Source of the DNA: Rhizobium sp. RU20A
GTDB lineage: Bacteria; Pseudomonadota; Alphaproteobacteria; Rhizobiales; Rhizobiaceae
Reading direction: 5' to 3'
NCBI RefSeq assembly: GCF_900155885.1
Contig: NZ_FTMB01000002.1
Location: forward strand, 186,001 to 250,000
DNA length: 64,000 bases
The translations under genes were made by a program, and so were the position numbers. The notes below the pieces were generated by a model. The model ran no database searches. It was not told where the DNA came from and saw only the letters and a list, made by a program, of their open reading frames with translations. Of this stretch, positions 1 to 25,794 are shown in pieces; position 1 is the first letter of the stretch; each line of letters starts with the position of its first letter.

Positions 1-783
1 GGCTGTGAACGTCAGGGCCTCGGTATCCCGAACTGCCTGAGCGTCCATCGCCCTGTTCCGTGCCACCGTTGACACGAAAAGCTCCCCGAGCCCGTCAATG
101 CGAGCCTGGATTCGTTTCTTCACATCGGCCGGCAATGCCTCGTAGGCGTTGCCGTCAACCTTGTGCTTGCCGTAGTGAATGAAGGTGATCTTGTAGCCGT
201 AGTCATCCATCGCCTTGCTGGCGTCGATATGCATGGTGACCACGCCGATCGACCCGACGCCGCCTGTGCGCGAGACCGTTGCTTGACCTGGATCAGCTGA
301 CGAAAAGATGAGGTATGCCGCGGAATATGCATTCTCAGCCGCATAGGCTCGCATAGGCTTTCGACCACGGGCAGCATAGATCTTATCGCCGAGGTCGAAA
401 CATCCGGCAACATGACCACCGGGCGAGTCGATAACGAAGGCGATCCCCTTGACCTCGGGATCCGCGAGACCGCGTTCCAGCGCCTTGGTGATGTAGACAT
501 AGCCGGTCAGCCAGGAGCCGATCGCGTAGCCAACGCCGTAAAGCAGCACACCTTTCACCGGGATCATCAAGATCCCGTTCTTGACGATATAGGGACGATA
601 CACAGCCAGCCAGCTGTCGGGCGACGGCCAGAAGTCGTCCTGCATGACGATCTTCTCGCTGGAAGTTTCGATCCGGCTGAGCGCCGTCTGACCCTCGGCA
701 AGACACGCTTCGAACTGCGTGTGCATCGCCGAATTCACGAGAGCAGGTTCGTTGTTGAAGCTGGCGAGGAGCGCGTTTTTCAT
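1..783 (-). CDS. Phage head maturation protease, S49 family (partial, C-terminus beyond window)
   Basis: The reading frame begins at the ATG at 783 and leaves the window at base 1, so only the first 261 residues are visible. It shows the S49 (SppA/SohB) signature VIDSPGGHVAGCF near residue 120, with the nucleophilic Ser in SPGG. Downstream are the GSIGVV stretch and a GKHK segment that places the catalytic Lys. In lambda-like phages this protease processes the head scaffold and capsid. It starts immediately after the portal stop (TGA at 786-788), the standard portal-protease order. The family is clear; exact length and any fused scaffold domain are off-window. Confidence 0.9.
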   Translation of the reverse strand, partial: MKNALLASFNNEPALVNSAMHTQFEACLAEGQTALSRIETSSEKIVMQDDFWPSPDSWLAVYRPYIVKNGILMIPVKGVLLYGVGYAIGSWLTGYVYITKALERGLADPEVKGIAFVIDSPGGHVAGCFDLGDKIYAARGRKPMRAYAAENAYSAAYLIFSSADPGQATVSRTGGVGSIGVVTMHIDASKAMDDYGYKITFIHYGKHKVDGNAYEALPADVKKRIQARIDGLGELFVSTVARNRAMDAQAVRDTEALTFTA

Positions 784-785
784 CG

Positions 786-2456
786 TCATGCCGCCTTTTT
801 CGTGCCGCTGGCGGCATTGGACTGATTTTTCGCCTCGGGCTGCAGGATGCCGTAGAACTGTTTCCAGCCCATCTCGCGCTTGATCTGCCGCATGCGCTTG
901 CGCCAGTCGCCGCCGAGGCGAGCGTTCTCGGTTTCGAGGTCCGACAGACCGTTGTCGATCCGCAGGATCGCTGCCTCGGTTTCCTTCTTTTCGTCCACCT
1001 GTCCACGGCTAGCGCCGACCCAATCGCAGGCGGTGTATGCGTCCTTGAACTGCTTCTCGTAGAAGCTCGGCATGTTCCGGCGAACCGAGGTGATCTCGCC
1101 CTTGTTGATCGCCTCTTCCAGCCACAGGGTGTAGATGTGCGAGGCAAAGCGATCGGCGACCATGCGTTTGATCGACAGCATGGCCTTGTGCGTTTCGGCC
1201 ATCGCGGCGCGGGCCGACGAGTAGTTCGTCTTCGTGTAGTCACGCGACAGCTGCTCGTAGCTGACACCAAGGGCAGCAGCGATGTGGCGAAGAAGGGACT
1301 GCTCGAACTCACTGCCAAGCGGACCGCCCTGACCAGCGCCCTGGAGTTTGAACTTCGAGCCTGGCGGCAAATGGGGAATCTTCACGCCGTCGATCTGAAG
1401 GTTCTTCGCAGCGCCCATGAACTGGCTGAGCGTGTTGAAATGCCCGCCCATGTAGGACATGAGCATTTCCTGCACCTTCTCGGGCGACACATCCGATCCG
1501 CCGAGTTGGGCGAAGATCGCTTCTGTTGGCAGTTCGGACTCGACCGTTGCCGCATAGGTCGCATTGAGCACGGCGTTCTGAAGAACCATCTGGCGAAAGT
1601 TCTTCGTCATCTTCATCTCGGACAGCGCGGCCACCATGGCAGAGATGCCACGGGATTGATCCGGGCGCAGCTGCTCGAAGATGTGCATCATCTGGATCCG
1701 GCCCCAGGGCTTGCGGATGTCGATGGCCTTCCAGAGATAGGAGTCGGGCGTCATCCAGTCGCTAGGATGCGCCATGCGAACATAGTAGGTCTGCGGCGCC
1801 CCATGCTTGTTGCGACGAACACCGCCCCGAACGGCCGGATCACCAGCGAACTCGGGCGGCGTGGAAAGACGGTCGATGTCGATCATCTGAATGGCGGTGT
1901 TGAACATGCGCGGCTGGTCGCGCAGCCACTCGGCTGAAGCCAAGACTTCACCGTGAATGGTGTGGGTATCAACGGCCATGCGCACGAGACCAGTCAACGT
2001 GTTCTGGCGTGCGGCATCCGGCCAGTTGTCGAGCGACTCAGCCCAAAGGGCGAATTTCTCCTCGACCTCCTCCTGCCATTCGTCTTCCCATTTTTCGTCC
2101 TCCTTGCCGAAAAGCACGGTCGTGACCGGCTTTGCGTTCAGCATGTAGTAGGAGCCGACGATATTATCCTTGCGCAGCGTGGCACCGCCCTGGACATAGG
2201 CGTCGTTGCGCGCGGTGTCGCGTGTGCGGGCGTCTGCGGTCGCCTTGGCCGGAAGCAGATCGGCATCTGCCGAGCGGATGACGGGCGAATAATTTGCCAT
2301 CTCGCGGCTGAAACGGGATGCACCCTCATAGGCATCACCTGCAATCGACAGTTCCTCGCCCGCGCCGGCTCCGTTCACCCTGACACGTACCGGCGCGGGC
2401 TTCCCGCTCGATGGTGCGTCACCGAGCAGTTCCATGATTTCGGGATCGTGATTCAT
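786..2456 (-). CDS. Phage portal protein, lambda family
   Basis: A 556-residue protein of the size usual for lambda-type portals (about 500-560). It has the typical N-terminal half (alternating Arg/Asn, RNDAYVQGGATLRKDNIVGS near residues 85-105), a central MIDIDRLSTP segment, and GVSYEQLSRDYTKTNYSSARAAMAE near residue 400, a characteristic lambda-portal motif. It would form the dodecameric DNA entry channel at one capsid vertex. It overlaps no gene and is followed by the S49 protease. Unusually, no terminase or gpW-like joining gene lies upstream; the next gene upstream on the same strand is an unrelated small protein. Confidence 0.92.
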   Translation of the reverse strand: MNHDPEIMELLGDAPSSGKPAPVRVRVNGAGAGEELSIAGDAYEGASRFSREMANYSPVIRSADADLLPAKATADARTRDTARNDAYVQGGATLRKDNIVGSYYMLNAKPVTTVLFGKEDEKWEDEWQEEVEEKFALWAESLDNWPDAARQNTLTGLVRMAVDTHTIHGEVLASAEWLRDQPRMFNTAIQMIDIDRLSTPPEFAGDPAVRGGVRRNKHGAPQTYYVRMAHPSDWMTPDSYLWKAIDIRKPWGRIQMMHIFEQLRPDQSRGISAMVAALSEMKMTKNFRQMVLQNAVLNATYAATVESELPTEAIFAQLGGSDVSPEKVQEMLMSYMGGHFNTLSQFMGAAKNLQIDGVKIPHLPPGSKFKLQGAGQGGPLGSEFEQSLLRHIAAALGVSYEQLSRDYTKTNYSSARAAMAETHKAMLSIKRMVADRFASHIYTLWLEEAINKGEITSVRRNMPSFYEKQFKDAYTACDWVGASRGQVDEKKETEAAILRIDNGLSDLETENARLGGDWRKRMRQIKREMGWKQFYGILQPEAKNQSNAASGTKKAA

Positions 2457-2665: not shown

Positions 2666-2857
2666 TCAACAACGTTTCAGAGCGGCTTCAATGTCCTGGT
2701 CGCTCGCTCGATTTATCGCGTCAACGAACCCTCGGTACTGAGCCTTGCTTTCGCGGATAATAGCATCGCGGTCTACGTCCGCTCTGCGTGGTTGTTCGCT
2801 CCGAACCGTTTTTGCATCAATCGCTTTCCGAAGCGCATTCGGTGCCGAGTTCATCAT
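2666..2857 (-). CDS. Small hypothetical protein (63 aa), operon partner of the Ntn-hydrolase-like gene
   Basis: A charged, probably helical 63-residue protein with no motif I recognise. It begins 14 bp after the stop of the upstream Ntn-hydrolase-like gene and has a strong Shine-Dalgarno GGGGAG four bases before the first of two adjacent ATG codons (2857 or 2854). That ribosome site and the tight spacing argue for a real gene co-translated with its neighbour. No membrane segment or signal peptide is visible. It may be an accessory or regulatory partner of the neighbouring protein, but nothing in the sequence proves this. Confidence 0.65.
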   Translation of the reverse strand: MMNSAPNALRKAIDAKTVRSEQPRRADVDRDAIIRESKAQYRGFVDAINRASDQDIEAALKRC

Positions 2858-2871
2858 GCTTCTCCCCAGGG

Positions 2872-4140
2872 CTATGATAACTGTGCCGCCTGTCGCAGCG
2901 CATATCTCGAATTTAGGTCAGGGCTAAAGAAATGTTTCCTCTTCACCCAAACCAAGCCCTCGTGCTTGGTAATTATCGCCACATCGACCGGTCCGCCAAC
3001 CGTCTCTGATGGCTTTGTCACTTTCTCCTTCAACGATTGAAGAGAGATTAAGGTTTCAGCCAGTCCCGCCATTTCCTCAACGGGGAGATGGCGCAGGACG
3101 TTCTTTAATGGCATCGAATGCTCGCGCCTAGCCTTATCCATCACCGCTTCGCCGATTTTCTGGGTGGTAGCTTGCACGACGCTGTCGATGTCATCAATTG
3201 CCGAAAAATCACCACCCGCTTGCACCACCACCTCGTCAGCGAACGATCTTAAGTTCTCTGTCACCGCAACCATCAGCGAGGAGTAAATATCGTAACTTAA
3301 GCCAAGCGAAAATGTATCAGTCATTGATGTTTGAGCGAAGCCTGAAAGCCAAGCTGGGGTCTCATGGTCGATTTTCTGGTCCGACTGGCTGATGCAAATA
3401 GGTTGTCCACCTAACAGTCCGCATGACACATACTCGACCATAGCCGGAAAAATCTGGTGGTCGCCAAATCCCGCAAACACGAGCCCAGTTGTAGGTAGGT
3501 TTTCCTGCGGCTTAGACATGACCTCTTTCAAAGCTGCACTCGCGGCATCCATAAGGTTGTCAGGCCTGGGAACTTCGATGGCATCGAGAAAACCACCTAT
3601 CCATTCAGCGACGCTGTCTGTGAGCTCACCTACGACTTGATTGCCGAGCGCATCGCCGATGCAGGGCGCTGGCTGTATCACCCGCCTCTTTTCTACTTCG
3701 AAAGCAAAAGCTGCGTGCACGAGATCTGAGTGCCCCTCTTCACTTGCGCCGTCGATTGCCTTGGCGATCCAACCAAAAATCAGATTTTGCGCCGGTCTAC
3801 GGACAGCGTTTTTCTGTATGTCATCTGGGAAAAATGAGTCGTGTGCCTTGCCAAGAAAGTTAAAGAGCTCCGCGGCATATTCTTCGACTGTATTAAATGA
3901 CTTACGGCCCAACTGTGCCCGAAAGGCCTTGATGATTAGCTCCCATGGGACATTAAGGATATCGGCTCCATCGAAAATCATTAGACCAACCGGATGATGG
4001 TCAGAAAGCTGAAAGACTTTGTTCGCGCCTTTGAAATAGCGCTCTTCTCGCTTATTCTCGACCCACTGGGTAACAGTAGAGGCAGAATCAGCCGCCAAGA
4101 CCACAGCCAGCCGGTTCATCATACAGATTTCTGACGTCAT
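2872..4140 (-). CDS. Proteasome-like Ntn-hydrolase candidate (422 aa), accessory gene
   Basis: The start is set by an AAGGAGG ribosome site six bases before ATG 4140, giving N-terminus Met-Thr-Ser. With the initiator Met removed, Thr would become residue 1. The Asp of AADS then falls at position 17, as in proteasome beta subunits and HslV, and a Lys in GANKVF follows at 40 (33 in the canonical fold, so about a seven-residue insertion). The next segment, PVGLMIFDGADI, resembles the beta-subunit S2-S3 hairpin followed by helix H1. The protein is nearly twice as long as HslV, with a C-terminal half of no family I recognise. No ATPase unfoldase is adjacent. The fold is inferred from motif spacing, not from any search. 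Confidence 0.55.
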   Translation of the reverse strand: MTSEICMMNRLAVVLAADSASTVTQWVENKREERYFKGANKVFQLSDHHPVGLMIFDGADILNVPWELIIKAFRAQLGRKSFNTVEEYAAELFNFLGKAHDSFFPDDIQKNAVRRPAQNLIFGWIAKAIDGASEEGHSDLVHAAFAFEVEKRRVIQPAPCIGDALGNQVVGELTDSVAEWIGGFLDAIEVPRPDNLMDAASAALKEVMSKPQENLPTTGLVFAGFGDHQIFPAMVEYVSCGLLGGQPICISQSDQKIDHETPAWLSGFAQTSMTDTFSLGLSYDIYSSLMVAVTENLRSFADEVVVQAGGDFSAIDDIDSVVQATTQKIGEAVMDKARREHSMPLKNVLRHLPVEEMAGLAETLISLQSLKEKVTKPSETVGGPVDVAIITKHEGLVWVKRKHFFSPDLNSRYALRQAAQLS

Positions 4141-4776
4141 CGCTGGCCTCCTTCAAGTTCTCTGATCTACGTTAGACCATGATTCGCGCGAACCGAGTAA
4201 TTTGAGAATCCGATTTAAACCAGTCGTCAGTTTTTTTCACAGAACTCTCTTTGCCCATCGACCTTGTAACCGCACTTTCGGGTCTGGCTTTCCGCCGCAT
4301 GCCCTCGTCCAACGAAAATTGGTTTGGCAAAGTGCCCTCGTATCACCTGTGGACAGCTTCCAGCACCCTCAATCAATCCGTTTCAAATTCCTCCCAGTGG
4401 TTCATGATAAGCGCAACCCGATCGGGTAGCCGGAAACGAGGAGAAGGGCTCCCCTGTCCGGGAGCTTGGAGACCGGATAGGTTATGGCCGTTCGGACGGT
4501 ATGGCGACCCATGACTCGGGGGCTCGTAATCGCTGCTTTGCGTCTTCTTGAAAGTTTTTTCCGGGCTCAAGTGGCCGTCGCCGCGGCGTAATTCCTGACA
4601 TTGTTGCAGGAAATGGCAGTGCCCGCATGCCCCCCGCTAGTTAAGACGCTAACCGACAAAGGCCTGTGAAGCGGTGTTGCCCTACTTGAAGGCCATCTGA
4701 TACACACTGACGCACTTGCTATGCGCAAAAATATGCATATATAGTACGCAGAAAATGCACATTTTTGGAGAGGTTT
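4141..4776. other. Intergenic region between two divergent accessory operons
   Basis: About 640 bp with no convincing gene. It must hold the promoters for the minus-strand Ntn-hydrolase-like operon and the plus-strand kinase operon. A 65-codon frame at 4373-4570 lacks a ribosome site and reads as low-complexity sequence. The last 50 bp contain palindromes listed separately. Confidence 0.6.
4731..4765. promoter_or_regulatory. Palindromes before the kinase operon, candidate RHH autoregulatory operator
   Basis: ATATGCATAT (4731-4740) is a perfect palindrome, and AAAATG-CA-CATTTT (4752-4765) has perfect 6-bp arms. Both lie within 50 bp upstream of a gene for a ribbon-helix-helix protein, a family that commonly represses its own operon at short palindromes. 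The binding assignment is inference. Confidence 0.4.
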
Positions 4777-4995
4777 ATGAGCAAGGTCAGAATGAACATC
4801 GAAGTGAGTGCAGATGTCGCGGCCTTCCTGGATGAGCTAGCGCAAGAAGAAGGGGCGACGAAGACCGAAATCGTGCGTCGCGCTTTATCCGTGATGAAAG
4901 CATATAAAAGTCAGAAAGACAAAGGTAGGAGTCATATGGGTTTTGTGTCGGACCCAAGTAAATTAGATGCCGAGATCATAGGCATCCTCAACTAA
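4777..4995 (+). CDS. Ribbon-helix-helix (CopG/Arc-type) DNA-binding protein
   Basis: Starting at the ATG at 4777, which has GGAGAGG five to ten bases upstream, the product is 72 residues. It shows the RHH layout: a short beta strand VRMNIEVSADV, then helices AFLDELAQEEGA and KTEIVRRALSVMKAY. Such proteins dimerise and bind palindromic DNA, often as the antitoxin or repressor of the operon they head. Its stop overlaps the next start (TAATG), so it is translationally coupled to the two-TM gene. Alternative: an antitoxin-like component, although no recognisable toxin follows. Confidence 0.75.
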   Translation: MSKVRMNIEVSADVAAFLDELAQEEGATKTEIVRRALSVMKAYKSQKDKGRSHMGFVSDPSKLDAEIIGILN

Positions 4996-5279
4996 TGATC
5001 AATGATCCCGAGATAATCGACATTCGCCCTACGCCAGGACCAGAGCAAATCAGTTCAACAGAAGTTGTTCCTCCGGGCTCTGTTAACCCAATCGACGTAG
5101 AACGCCTAAAAATGCTTGCAGCAATTTGGATATCGGGCGCGGCGGTTATTCTCGGGTTCATCGCGTTGATTGTCGCAATTTGCACGAAGGATACAGAACT
5201 CAAGACTTGGTCTACAGGATTGATTTCGTTAGTCGTCGGTGCTGCTATTGGCTTTGCCTTCTCGACTTCAAAAGACTAA
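4995..5279 (+). CDS. Small two-transmembrane protein
   Basis: A 94-residue protein with a polar N-terminus of about 37 residues, then two hydrophobic helices (about 39-61, MLAAIWISGAAVILGFIALI, and 71-89, STGLISLVVGAAIGFAF) joined by a short charged loop. It is probably an inner-membrane hairpin with both ends cytoplasmic. The start shares one base with the previous stop. The family is unknown to me. Sitting between a regulator and a protein kinase, it may be a membrane anchor, sensor or effector of the system. Confidence 0.75.
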   Translation: MINDPEIIDIRPTPGPEQISSTEVVPPGSVNPIDVERLKMLAAIWISGAAVILGFIALIVAICTKDTELKTWSTGLISLVVGAAIGFAFSTSKD

Positions 5280-5288
5280 GGATGGGCA

Positions 5289-6371
5289 ATGGGAAATGCG
5301 CAGCATCTGACTGGAAAGATACTAAAAGGCCACAAGACTGGGATTGGATGGGAAGTAGTCGAAAGCCTCAACACCCCCACCGCTGTTAAAAGCACTGAGT
5401 CTAATTCGCATGTGTACAAGGTTAAAGATCAGGCCTCTGGGCGCTTCGCGTTTCTTAAAGCAGCGGACGTGGATTTCATAGGCGGAGAAGAAAGCCTGCT
5501 TGTGCGCTTAAAAGCACTCCTAATGCACCATGAATTTGAGACCTGCGTGTCAGATCATTGTCATGGGAATAACATGGACCGAGTGTGCCTTGCGATTGAC
5601 CACGGGGATGCAGTGATCGAGGCTAACGGCGTGAGGGAAGCCGTTTTCTATCTAGTATTTGAGCTTGCTGACGGGGATATTCGAGATCAGATTTTTACCG
5701 CTGAACAGTGGACTGTTCAGCGAAAATTCCGCCTTTTGCATCAGGTAGCGGTGGGCCTCTCCCAGCTTCACAGTGTGAAGGTGAGCCACAACGATTTGAA
5801 GCCGCCGAACGTGCTTATGTACGCGGACGATCATAAGGTCTCCGACTTGGGGCAAGCGACTCGGGAAGACCTTATTGCACCTCATGATTGGAACGCCGTG
5901 GTTGGTGATCCCAGATATGCACCACCAGAGGCGCTTTACTCCTTTGATGGTGATCCTGGCGCACGCTTACTGCCCAATAGGTTACGTCAATGCGGTGACC
6001 TATACCTGCTAGGAAGTCTTATGCACTTTCTGTTTAGTGGCAGAATGATGACGCCATGTATTCTTGAAAGGCTGCACCCGGTCCACCTTCCAAGCTTTGA
6101 AGGTGAAGGATGGGAGGGTCCTTACAACGATCTGATTCCGTTTTGGCGTGAGGCAATGTCGGAGGAGTTTACTGCTCTTCGTAAGGCACTTGCGCAAAGG
6201 AACGATTTTGACGCGCGGTCGATTGACCAAATTATTACTTTCCTAAGTCAACTTTGTGATCCCGATCCTGAACTCAGAGGCCATCCCCTCGATCAAGTCG
6301 ATGGCATTCGCACGTTCAACCTTCAACGATACATTTCCGCTTTCAACGTTCTATCTCACCGGCTGCAGTAA
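5289..6371 (+). CDS. Serine/threonine protein kinase (Hanks type), accessory operon
   Basis: A 360-residue soluble protein with a recognisable kinase domain. There is a weak glycine-loop equivalent (ESNSHVYKV, residues 37-45), a candidate ATP-binding Lys57 in FLKA, the catalytic loop HNDLKPPNVL with Asp169, SDLG with Asp186 replacing DFG, and GDPRYAPPEAL as the activation-segment APE. The key catalytic residues are present, so it is probably active despite the degenerate P-loop. There are no TM, PASTA or WD extensions. It is encoded 9 bp after the two-TM gene and overlaps the TPR gene by one base (TAATG). The operon is visibly more A+T-rich than the core genes, suggesting horizontal acquisition. 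Confidence 0.85.
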   Translation: MGNAQHLTGKILKGHKTGIGWEVVESLNTPTAVKSTESNSHVYKVKDQASGRFAFLKAADVDFIGGEESLLVRLKALLMHHEFETCVSDHCHGNNMDRVCLAIDHGDAVIEANGVREAVFYLVFELADGDIRDQIFTAEQWTVQRKFRLLHQVAVGLSQLHSVKVSHNDLKPPNVLMYADDHKVSDLGQATREDLIAPHDWNAVVGDPRYAPPEALYSFDGDPGARLLPNRLRQCGDLYLLGSLMHFLFSGRMMTPCILERLHPVHLPSFEGEGWEGPYNDLIPFWREAMSEEFTALRKALAQRNDFDARSIDQIITFLSQLCDPDPELRGHPLDQVDGIRTFNLQRYISAFNVLSHRLQ

Positions 6372-7921
6372 TGGAGCGACAAGACGACGTTACACGCCGA
6401 ACGGTTGTGCCTCGGTGGCGCGCGTTTAGAGAAACACCTCTTCACGAACTCCGTTCGATGACGACAAAGTCAACAACACGAGATCGTCCTTCTCACATAC
6501 TGGATGCTGCTGTCAGGCAATTCGAGAAGTCCCCAACCGCTTACACAGCAGCCGAAGTCGCTGATGCCGTATCTCTGCTGGGCCACGACGACCGAGCCTC
6601 AGCCGCTCTTCGTTATTTGCAGGAGCGGCGCGACGCCCTAATGCCAATGGTGACGGAGCGATTCACCCAAGCTGTGAAGCAACATTCCCATCCCGCTTCA
6701 CCAACTGAACTGCGAGGCGCCATAGCGCAAAAAAGAAAATCTCTAATAGACCAGCCACGAAATAGCATTGGTCATGTCGAAATTGCTCGGCTTTACGCAG
6801 TGGCGGGACAAGCGAAAGCAGCCGACAGGCATATGGAAATGGCGGTCAAAATTTCTCCCGACAGTCGATTTGTGTTGCGCTCAGCCGCTCGTCTATTTGT
6901 TCACTATGACCGACCAGAGAAAGCACTTTATTTTCTTCAAAGGTCGAATTCGATCAAACATGATCCTTGGCTAATGGCAGCTGAGGTGGCGGTAGCCGAT
7001 AGCTTTGGAGAGAGACAAGAATTTGGGATTAGACAACTGAAGCGAATTTCAGGCTTAGAGCATGCGTCGATTAACTACAGCGAGCTAGCTTCCGCTCTGG
7101 GCGCCCTGGAAGATCGAAATGGGGCGCACAAGATAGCGAGAAAACTTATCAGGCGAAGCTTGGACCATCCGACAGAGAATTCTCTTGCTCAAGCAGTCTG
7201 GATGTCGACGAAGGCCAAGCATCAATTTGTAGATCTTAACCTGAACCCCAGTGAACAGGCATACGAAGCGGGCGTATTTCAAGCCATCCATATGAAGGAG
7301 TACCAGCGAGCTGACCGATTCGCATGGAATTGGCTAAATGACGAGCCATTTTCATCCGGACCAGCTGTGCAGGGCTCGTTTATAAACTGCACGTTTACAA
7401 GATCATACTCGAGAGCGCTTGCTTTTTGTGAGAGAGGTCTCATCTCAAATCCCGATGACGACACGTTACAAAACAACCGCATCTTTTCCCTTATAATGTG
7501 CGGCCGCTTGGATGAAGCGCAAAAAATTTTACCGGTGCAAGGAAAGCTTGTCCATGACCCGCAACGTCCAATCTTTGATCTTGCGCTACATGGGTTATGG
7601 CATTTTAAGAGCGGAAATTTTTCGGAGGGACGCAGATTTTACAGAGAGGCCGCTGAACGTGCTCTACCGAAGTACCCGAATTTGTACGCATCCGCCATTT
7701 CTCATTGGCTAGAAAACGAGGTTGTTTCTGGAAGCGTTGATAGGGCCGAGTTCGAACAATTGTCATTTCAGCTTGAAGATCGGCTGAAAAAGCTAAAGGC
7801 CGACCTCACCATTTGGTCTGCTACGCGGGACTTCCTACAACTGCAATATTCAGCGCCCACGCAGGTCAGGACAATTGTGAACCCGAGAACGGGCGAGGAA
7901 ATCCGGTTCATAATTCGATAA
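6371..7921 (+). CDS. TPR-like helical-repeat protein, kinase operon
   Basis: A 516-residue protein without signal peptide or TM segments. Its middle and C-terminal parts read as tetratricopeptide-like repeats, for example VEIARLYAVAGQAKAADRH near residues 137-155 and FCERGLISNPDDDTLQNNR near 355-373. The final 15 residues end in basic and hydrophobic VNPRTGEEIRFIIR. TPR arrays bind other proteins, so it may be the substrate, scaffold or sensor for the kinase it is coupled to by a one-base start-stop overlap. No enzymatic motif was seen. It is the last gene of the four-gene operon. Confidence 0.7.
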   Translation: MERQDDVTRRTVVPRWRAFRETPLHELRSMTTKSTTRDRPSHILDAAVRQFEKSPTAYTAAEVADAVSLLGHDDRASAALRYLQERRDALMPMVTERFTQAVKQHSHPASPTELRGAIAQKRKSLIDQPRNSIGHVEIARLYAVAGQAKAADRHMEMAVKISPDSRFVLRSAARLFVHYDRPEKALYFLQRSNSIKHDPWLMAAEVAVADSFGERQEFGIRQLKRISGLEHASINYSELASALGALEDRNGAHKIARKLIRRSLDHPTENSLAQAVWMSTKAKHQFVDLNLNPSEQAYEAGVFQAIHMKEYQRADRFAWNWLNDEPFSSGPAVQGSFINCTFTRSYSRALAFCERGLISNPDDDTLQNNRIFSLIMCGRLDEAQKILPVQGKLVHDPQRPIFDLALHGLWHFKSGNFSEGRRFYREAAERALPKYPNLYASAISHWLENEVVSGSVDRAEFEQLSFQLEDRLKKLKADLTIWSATRDFLQLQYSAPTQVRTIVNPRTGEEIRFIIR

Positions 7922-10212: not shown

Positions 10213-10464
10213 ATGCCTTATACTGCTGAGTTCTTTCGCGGAAACGCAATGTATTTCAAACGCGCTATCGACACCCTGGCTGACTTTAGCAAGGGCGAAT
10301 ATGTTTTTGTGGGCGGAAAATCCTACGTGATTTCTGAGACAGCTATAGCGCTTCTTTCCGACAGTGCGAGTGTCAAGCGCATTCGTTTGGAAGCCCCGAC
10401 AAGGTCTCTCGCCGACGACAGTTTCCTAGCTGTCCCCCCAGGAACTCTGGAAATTGCGGAATAG
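10213..10464 (+). CDS. Hypothetical protein (83 aa)
   Basis: An isolated small gene. The ATG at 10213 has GGGAG ten bases upstream; an in-frame ATG at 10189 has no such site. The product MPYTAEFFRGNAMYFKRAID and following looks like a small globular alpha/beta protein. No family recognised, no membrane segment. Confidence 0.5.
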   Translation: MPYTAEFFRGNAMYFKRAIDTLADFSKGEYVFVGGKSYVISETAIALLSDSASVKRIRLEAPTRSLADDSFLAVPPGTLEIAE

Positions 10465-24301: not shown

Positions 24302-24552
24302 TGATGCGGATCGATAATGGCTCCGTTGCACGACCTCTTCCACTCCCAAGCAAGCGCGGCCTTTCACGGGTCGAAGCAGCGGAATATATCGGCATCGGTG
24401 CAACGAAATTTGACGCGCTGGTGATCGACGGGAGGATGCCGCAACCAAAGCGTATTGATGGCCGTAAGATTTGGGACTTGCGCGCATTGGATCTCGCGTT
24501 CGAACAGTTGCCATCGGCGAACGCCGACGACCATAATCCTTGGGACAGTTGA
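24301..24552 (+). CDS. Excisionase/AlpA-like HTH protein
   Basis: 83 residues. GLSRVEAAEYIGIGATKFDALVIDGRMPQPKRIDGRKIWDLRALDLAFEQL (about 20-70) is the typical Xis/AlpA winged-HTH pattern: helix, recognition helix, a beta wing with 'MPQPKRI', then a C-terminal helix. Its start overlaps the preceding stop and it ends just before the integrase. It probably directs excision from tRNA-Phe and may regulate integrase. Confidence 0.8.
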   Translation: MMRIDNGSVARPLPLPSKRGLSRVEAAEYIGIGATKFDALVIDGRMPQPKRIDGRKIWDLRALDLAFEQLPSANADDHNPWDS

Positions 24553-24572
24553 GGCCAATGTCCGAGGAAGAG

Positions 24573-25628
24573 ATGAGAGTCCGTTTAAAATACGTTGTCG
24601 AAGACGTTGACCGTCATGGCAACATCCGCCTGTATTACCGGCGCAAAGGCTCGACGAAGGTTCGACTACCTGGCCCGTTAGGATCACCAGCGTTCTTGGC
24701 CGCTTACAAAGCCGCTGATTCCGGCGCACCCCCTGCAAAGGCAGATGACGGCAAGGTCAAGGTGATCAAGGCCGGCTCGGTTCGGTGGCTTTGCGTCCAG
24801 TATTTTCAATCGGCCATGTTCAACGAATTGGACGCGCGAACCCAATATGTTCGTCGTGGTCTTCTCGAACGATTTTGCCAGAACAAGGATGACGGCGATA
24901 AACCATACCGGCTCATTCTACCTCGGCATCTTCGTCAACGCCGCGACGAAATGATGGATCGCCCTGAAGCAGCCAACGGCATGCTCAAAGCCCTCAGACA
25001 ACTCTTCAAATTTGCCGTTCGCTACGATCACCACGACGACAATCCCGCCGCTAAAGTCGAGTATCTGAAGAACAAGAACCCTGACGGCTTCCACTCTTGG
25101 ACGCTTGAAGAAATCGCACGCTACGAAGCCCGCCACCCCATAGGAACGAAGGCTCGTCTAGCCTTGGCTCTCATGCTTTATTCCGGTCAACGGCGAAGCG
25201 ACATCATTTCATTCGGCAGACAGCATATCCGCGATGGTCGATTGATTTTCACCCAACACAAAAATCGGAACAGCAAACCGGTCCGCCTGGAGATTCCTGT
25301 AATTGAGGAACTGCAGAAGATCATCGAAGCGAGCCCTTGCGGCGACCTGACTTTCTTGGTCACCGAATTCAACAGGCCTTTTACCTCGAATGGGTTTGGC
25401 AACTGGTTTCGCAAGCGCTGCGATGAGGCCGGCCTCACAGATTGTAGCGCACATGGACTACGAAAAGCCGCCGCGTCCAGGTTGGCAGAACTCGGTTGTA
25501 GCGAGTTCGAGATTATGGCTGTTACCGGACACTCAACATCGAAAGAGGTGACCCGATACACGAAAGCAGCGAGCCAAAAGAAGCGCGCTGACAGTGCGAT
25601 GAAAAGGCTTTCAGCGGAACAGAAGTAG
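24573..25628 (+). CDS. int: Tyrosine recombinase (phage integrase)
   Basis: 351 residues from the ATG at 24573, which has GAGGAAG upstream (ATG 24558 is an alternative). The N-terminal arm-binding domain (about 1-60: VRLKYVVEDVDRHGNIRLYYRRKG) and core-binding domain (about 70-165) precede the catalytic domain. The catalytic domain has the Arg of SGQRRSD, the HGLRKAAAS box (His, Arg), GHS with the second His, and the nucleophile Tyr in VTRYTKAA. All catalytic residues are present, so it should be active. It points at the 3' end of tRNA-Phe 90 bp away, the expected integration site. Confidence 0.95.
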   Translation: MRVRLKYVVEDVDRHGNIRLYYRRKGSTKVRLPGPLGSPAFLAAYKAADSGAPPAKADDGKVKVIKAGSVRWLCVQYFQSAMFNELDARTQYVRRGLLERFCQNKDDGDKPYRLILPRHLRQRRDEMMDRPEAANGMLKALRQLFKFAVRYDHHDDNPAAKVEYLKNKNPDGFHSWTLEEIARYEARHPIGTKARLALALMLYSGQRRSDIISFGRQHIRDGRLIFTQHKNRNSKPVRLEIPVIEELQKIIEASPCGDLTFLVTEFNRPFTSNGFGNWFRKRCDEAGLTDCSAHGLRKAAASRLAELGCSEFEIMAVTGHSTSKEVTRYTKAASQKKRADSAMKRLSAEQK

Positions 25629-25673: not shown

Positions 25674-25718
25674 AAATGACCCGTTAAGTATTTGATTTTA
25701 AATGAAAAAATTTTATGA

Positions 25719-25794
25719 TGGTGCCCGGAGGCGGATTTGAACCACCGACACGCGGATTTTCAATCCGCTGCTCTACCAACTGAGCTATCCGGGC
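25719..25794 (-). tRNA. tRNA-Phe (GAA), attachment site of the element
   Basis: 76 nt including encoded CCA (25719-25721). The acceptor stem GCCCGGA/TCCGGGC, D-arm TAGCTCAGTTGGTAGAGCA, anticodon loop TTGAAAA with GAA, and T-arm GGTTCAAATCC are all intact. The integrase gene faces its 3' end, so the attB core is probably the 3' half of this gene. No second copy of the 3' end is visible in the window, so the other att site must lie left of base 1. Confidence 0.97.

Follow-up and report, generated by a model that had tools for sequence, protein, structure and literature searches.

A proteasome-like Ntn-hydrolase gene and its conserved small partner gene on prophages, phage satellites and plasmids

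The window analyzed in this work, a stretch of 64,000 nucleotides from Rhizobium sp. RU20A, carries two consecutive reverse-strand genes near its left end: a gene for a proteasome-like threonine Ntn-hydrolase and a small open reading frame (ORF) behind it (Table 1). Read directly, the hydrolase gene comprises 422 codons, and its product begins with M-T-S-E. The AAGGAGG site lies 6 nt ahead of the ATG and confirms the start proposed in the first-pass annotation, with Thr immediately after Met; counted from this Thr, residue 17 is the Asp in AADS and residue 40 the Lys in GANKVF, as had also been stated there. The 63-residue gene that had been placed 14 bp downstream with its own Shine-Dalgarno sequence was likewise recovered, with a gap of 14 nt and with GGGGAG placed 4 nt ahead of the start codon. 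Initiation at another ATG, 3 nt further into the small ORF, would yield 62 aa instead of 63. No promoter-like site was found ahead of the pair on its strand, and no terminator-like site was found 3' of the window's own small gene; a (GA)n run occupies positions 2571-2599, 3' of this gene.

The pair is located within a prophage-like element, between portal and kinase operons, in agreement with the initial proposal. The integrase of the element adjoins tRNA-Phe, and the second copy of the 18-nt direct repeat lies 707 nt to the left of window position 1, the two copies being about 26.4 kb apart. The S49 peptidase encoded next to the portal gene is presumably of the usual prohead-protease type. 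On the other side of the pair, within the region 4995-7921, the kinase and TPR genes match PDC-M71A/B strongly, with E-values of 1.4e-77 (kinase) and 1.1e-102 (TPR), and a 94-aa protein encoded before them has two segments that look hydrophobic by eye, together with a weak match to SLATT (E 0.58).

Table 1. Features of the gene pair and of the surrounding element (window coordinates)
Feature	Position	Strand	Basis
S49 peptidase gene, 5' part in window (L227:13485-14789)	1..789	-	
Lambda-type portal gene, downstream of the pair	786..2456	-	
Small partner gene, 63 aa; modelled with a loose N-terminus and a long C-terminal helix	2666..2857	-	
Shine-Dalgarno GGGGAG of the small gene	2862..2867	-	sequence
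Proteasome-like Thr Ntn-hydrolase gene, 422 aa (phrog_5990; PMI-4-like)	2872..4140	-	sequence, family match, predicted model
Shine-Dalgarno AAGGAGG of the hydrolase gene	4147..4153	-	sequence
Kinase and TPR pair, PADLOC candidate defence system PDC-M71A/B	5289..7921	+	
Phage integrase, right end of the element	24540..25628	+	
18-nt direct repeat (tRNA-Phe 3' end), likely att site	25718..25735	+	

The sole family match of the hydrolase is phrog_5990, over the full length (E 7.1e-81), for which PHROGs gives no function; no match was obtained in Pfam, NCBIfam or PADLOC, and a phmmer search of the single sequence against the PDB returned one match only, at E 0.98. The predicted model has the proteasome fold (pLDDT 90.8, pTM 0.87). 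Its top Foldseek match among solved structures is the 20S subunit 1ryp_K (E 2.8e-4), with low TM-scores across the whole query (0.21-0.30 among the 50 matches listed). VIA-align ranks first a structure identified as yeast beta5 from its title and length (Z 17.6, rmsd 3.2, 186 aligned residues); the 50 matches listed are proteasome subunits or Anbu throughout, nearly tied at Z 16.7-17.6, and many of these alignments start by pairing residue 2 of the model with residue 1 of the mature subunit. Compared with solved structures, a 56-sequence profile ranks an archaeal 20S beta subunit first, weakly (E 0.004), with the N-terminal strand that bears Thr and the C-terminal strand GGxIDVAVI matched in the right order. 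The proteasome/HslV-type Ntn fold, for which structure prediction and fold comparison had been proposed as the check, is thus supported by the model and by both structural searches. At the level of sequence families, Pfam PF00227 matches 4/56 homologues (best E 1.6e-4). The Rhizobium genome has a PF00227-matching gene elsewhere; hhalign against a piece of its product gives a probability of 0.3%, and the catalytic residues nonetheless align.

In the model, whose segment borders were set by eye, strands in residues 3-56 precede H1/H2 (helices 66-77 and 85-98). An all-helical insertion (100-214) separates H2 from the strand 218-224; strands continue to residue 269 and are followed by helices with extra residues within about 283-351, by H4 (354-375) and by the last core strands (385-400). 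A sister family of about 280 aa, found through the locus L117 at 15 viral loci (L134-L148; 13 sequences aligned), aligns end to end with the hydrolase (E 5.8e-39), and the gaps fall in the helical insertion stretches: most of the inserted residues after H1/H2 are missing, and the region before H4 is shorter too. The profile of this family weakly matches proteasome beta type-4 (E 0.009). A separate C-terminal domain was therefore rejected, since the core strands extend to 385-400, the helical insertions precede them and the sister-family gaps fall there; the "long unknown C-terminal half" described as fused in the first-pass annotation resolves instead into helical insertions inside one Ntn domain. 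As judged from the model, the window hydrolase is a proteasome-like Ntn fold with variable helical insertions.

Conservation of Thr2, Asp18 and Lys41, on which the original assignment had been staked, is complete: T2, D18, S19 and K41 are identical in 99/99 distinct homologues. The first codon of these genes is ATG in 85, TTG in 12 and GTG in 2 cases, and residue 1 was written as M by script whatever the start codon. Since little in-frame room exists upstream (at most 20 open codons in 43/55 genes; more than 20, up to 154, in the other 12/55), a propeptide seems unlikely in most homologues. Removal of Met before Thr is a general rule, and the nucleophile would be exposed in this way because Thr directly follows the start codon. 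The position aligned with proteasome Ser169 is an invariant Val (V381, in a numbering derived in this analysis), so the auxiliary residues seem unlike those of the proteasome.

Relatives of the hydrolase were found in 13 of 50,697 phage records, Streptococcus satellite phages among them, in 10 of 72,556 plasmid records, at six genome-contig loci (one archaeal, one partial) and in 183 stretches of viral contigs, the best 80 of which were used. Among sampled genomes, matches occur in 16/289 of the window's class and in 11/398 of its phylum, its own genome counted in both, which marks the gene as a sporadic accessory one. Within E. coli, 22 of 5,426 genomes match, nine with copies near-identical to the query and 13 with another lineage. 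The hosts and carriers seen are a Porphyromonas phage, Streptococcus, Enterococcus, Proteobacteria and one Methanomassiliicoccaceae archaeon; phages and satellites are represented for hosts among the Bacillota, Bacteroidota and Pseudomonadota. Frame-broken copies, present as two ORFs or a shortened one (L017; L115 and L119; L144), suggest that the gene decays in some hosts. The distant chromosomal relatives L107, L108, L109, L111, L124 and L127 have no C-terminal W..RK motif; a larger ORF of 90-129 aa lies near L111, L124 and L127, and none with a Shine-Dalgarno sequence near the other three.

Conserved pairing with the small gene, another check suggested at the outset, was found in a survey that covered first 58 representatives from 85 homologues and then 99 distinct proteins. 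By a permissive criterion, an ORF of 34-74 aa lies 3' of the hydrolase gene in 94 of the 99, and a Shine-Dalgarno match of at least 4 bases precedes 81 of these 94 small ORFs. Of the five remaining loci, the sequence ends too early at L015 and L071, and the ORF is missing at L018, L073 and L089. In a control on the same contigs (loci with fewer than 300 nt after the gene dropped), a small ORF follows 51/55 hydrolase genes versus 39/373 other genes. With loci of fewer than 450 nt dropped, the strictest criterion gives 46/55 representatives versus 36/375 other genes, and the permissive one, with no Shine-Dalgarno sequence required, gives 54/55 versus 185/375; the strict figures are preferred because the permissive control is high. 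In an uncontrolled count, a small ORF also follows the sister-family gene at 12/15 loci (two of the 12 being near-copies); L144 is frame-broken, L145 ends with the contig and L140 has none. The partner therefore appears independent of the large insertions, and it may go with the Ntn core; a link to the W..RK..[YF] C-terminus that both families share, with its conserved W398/R401/K402/F405, is conceivable. Fixed pairing is opposed by several genome loci: L121 and L122 have no small ORF, L104 has only ones at least 48 nt away, and L107-L109 have none with a Shine-Dalgarno sequence. No clear natural fusion of the two genes was found in the sequence set, from which the partial genes L031, L034, L037 and L038 were left out for this check; the long C-termini of L018, L071 and L089 are, by eye, unlike the small partners.

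As judged from its substitution pattern, the small gene is coding, under purifying selection and usually faster-evolving than the enzyme. Its pN/pS ranges from 0.15 to 0.74 versus 0.09-0.43 for the hydrolase and is the higher of the two in 79/82 pairs; these pairs come from seven hand-picked groups, are not independent and mostly have synonymous differences near saturation. In 35/52 cases, versus 10/260 random stretches, the first 90 nt after the small-gene stop contain a terminator-like hairpin, and together with the short spacing this suggests that the two genes share one transcript. The small proteins are mostly basic (pI of at least 9 in 72/94, below 7 in 15/94). The model of the window's protein, built from six sequences only (pTM 0.43), has a loose N-terminus and one long helix at residues 30-62 (pLDDT about 89-97). 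With this protein as a query, the sole viral-contig match was the window's own provirus, and no universal motif was found in the small proteins. Of seven patterns examined, four, of F-N-P or aromatic-proline type, occur more often than in all 500 shuffles, the broadest in 12/53 proteins versus 3.0 after shuffling; the seven were chosen after looking, the four enriched ones overlap and most small proteins are without them.

Prophages, phage satellites and plasmids all carry the pair, which in some cases follows a repressor or runs antisense to late genes. At the one locus examined of the near-identical E. coli lineage, the gene lies between Q and the holin gene on the opposite strand, with its own terminator after the small ORF. 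At the two loci examined of the second E. coli lineage, it stands directly behind an HTH gene in the repressor position, an arrangement like that of lambda rexAB. Neighbouring genes were called with a simple ORF picker on either strand, ORFs below 75 aa and annotated loci being left out. Of 47 upstream neighbours, at least 7 have a match in a transcriptional-regulator family and 6 in a repressor family (the families may overlap); of 44 downstream ones, 7 match a Q-type antiterminator. In two satellites, a putative regulator gene lies 17 and 21 nt upstream. The copy of the Porphyromonas phage is located in the structural region, and that of a Providencia phage precedes the lysis genes on the same strand. 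Ten PADLOC families occur upstream, each in 1/47 proteins, and one downstream, in 1/44. No HslU-, Clp- or Lon-like unfoldase is annotated in the examined neighbourhoods, where many products are "hypothetical"; for unfoldases of these types, the earlier statement that no ATPase gene is adjacent stands, and the other ATPases seen are a helicase loader, a terminase and ParA. Two rhizobial plasmids, L018 (733-2799) and L019 (6671-9177), carry Multiubiquitin-domain and ThiF-type E1 genes at most a few kb away from the hydrolase gene.

We propose that the pair is a mobile cassette expressed in the lysogen, in which a proteasome-fold candidate hydrolase is combined with a dedicated regulator that binds it; as the best explanation of the data, this reading is assigned a probability of roughly one half. 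The two genes would form a cargo unit that is carried by temperate phages and phage satellites and occurs on plasmids as well. The first gene would encode an enzyme made with no propeptide, its active-site Thr placed right after the start codon and probably exposed by ordinary Met removal. The product of the second gene would most likely bind the hydrolase and control it, either as a dedicated inhibitor or as an assembly factor that replaces the missing propeptide. A regulator of this kind is favoured by the apparent absence of a propeptide from the enzyme and by a partner that is short, encoded next to it and quick to evolve. Expression in the lysogen is suggested by the E. coli copies, which either directly follow a repressor-like HTH gene or, ending in their own terminator, run antisense to late genes, and by the regulator family among the upstream neighbours; late expression also fits, given the positions of the Porphyromonas and Providencia copies. 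Once control is released, the hydrolase would most likely act on host or incoming-phage proteins. A narrower version, in which the prophage expresses a propeptide-free phage-borne hydrolase, held by a fast-evolving peptide partner, so as to confer immunity to other phages, is possible but doubtful, and the rarity of known defence genes among the immediate neighbours argues against a defence role.

Several other relations between the two products were considered. The small protein could be a substrate or bait cut by the hydrolase, for instance to free a signalling or toxic peptide or to report an inhibitor of an infecting phage; it is short, mostly basic, fast-evolving, partly loose in one model and encoded with the enzyme, but no cleavage-like motif is kept across clades, the F-N-P type being the best and having been picked post hoc, and we regard this role as unlikely. 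Somewhat less probable still is an addiction pair of the toxin-antitoxin kind, with a putatively toxic hydrolase neutralized by the small protein: the location on mobile elements, the two-gene unit and the fast-evolving partner suit it, whereas the chromosomal relatives L107-L109, L121 and L122 have no adjacent small ORF of the kind expected. In Actinobacteria, pup adjoins the proteasome genes (prcBA), and Pup is small and disordered; a comparable arrangement in which the hydrolase is a connectase-like ligase and the small protein a tag put on targets appears improbable, as no small protein ends in GG[EQ] and the modelled hydrolase has no connectase-type S3/S4 insertion, its strands 21-27 and 30-36 being joined by a tight turn. 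A ligase is known within the wider family, since connectase ligates (available sections of PMC8665760), and for that reason the designation "protease" is unproven for the hydrolase. A virion-maturation protease of capsid or tail assembly is the least probable role, and a prohead protease was rejected, since the gene's position near the portal here and in the structural region of the Porphyromonas phage is outweighed by the prophage's own S49 peptidase adjoining the portal and by homologues on satellites and plasmids, behind repressors (repressor-like genes in E. coli) and antisense to late genes.

The proposed cassette of hydrolase and binding regulator can be compared with several known systems. 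The window hydrolase shares with the 20S beta subunits (yeast beta5, archaeal beta) the fold and the equivalents of Thr1/Asp17/Lys33, invariant here as T2/D18/K41; it differs from them in its large insertions, the apparent lack of a propeptide, the absence of any unfoldase seen nearby and the Val at the Ser169 position. The N-terminal catalytic layout is the same as in HslV, according to a very weak alignment. HslV has about 175 residues, whereas the window hydrolase has 422 with its insertions, and its neighbours are portal and kinase genes with no hslU. The likeness to Pup lies in a small protein encoded beside a proteasome relative; the gene order is reversed with respect to pup/prcBA, and a Pup-like C-terminal GGE/GGQ was rejected for the partners, with none in the small-protein set and a last residue that varies. 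A connectase type (PMC8665760) was also rejected, because the two-helix S3/S4 insertion is missing and the H1/H2 helices are present. BPH of phage RXM is a proteasome relative in a phage genome (available sections of PMC8953757), and by name and description alone it belongs to another family.

The closest counterpart is PMI-4, one of the Proteasome homologs with Multiple Insertions named by Fuchs, Alva and Lupas in 2021 (PMC8665760). In the available sections of that paper, PMI-4 combines the proteasome-beta fold with one insertion following H1/H2 and another between H3 and H4; both are also present in PMI-3, which is not marked in phages, PMI-4 being the only PMI variant so marked in Table 1 of that paper, with hosts that include Proteobacteria, Firmicutes, Bacteroidetes and Euryarchaeota. 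The window hydrolase, compared with this text, has the long helical insertion after H1/H2 and the extra helical residues between H3 and H4, and its family occurs in bacteria, in a euryarchaeal-type host and in phages, part of the table's phyla having been sampled. By this description the enzyme family is very probably PMI-4. The same sections report no suggestive genomic context for the new proteasome-like families and no known function for PMI-4, and no functional study of the hydrolase family or of the partner was among the papers listed in the literature searches, which had subscription papers outside their scope. Within that scope, the partner gene and the cassette layout are new. The partner can escape annotation: RefSeq has no entry for the small ORF (10308-10457) that follows the examined E. 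coli copy L131. If the proposed reading is true, the PMI group would gain in the partner its first dedicated small regulator, and a role in immunity would make the hydrolase the first proteasome-family protein with a function in phage defence, both within the literature searched. Phages and satellites of three bacterial phyla are shown here to carry a proteasome relative, and the pairing suggests a two-gene switch carried by viruses of bacteria. What distinguishes the window family from PMI-4 as described is the conserved small partner gene and the prophage cassette layout, and since the partner lies beside almost every copy, it offers a direct handle on the function of one PMI-type family.
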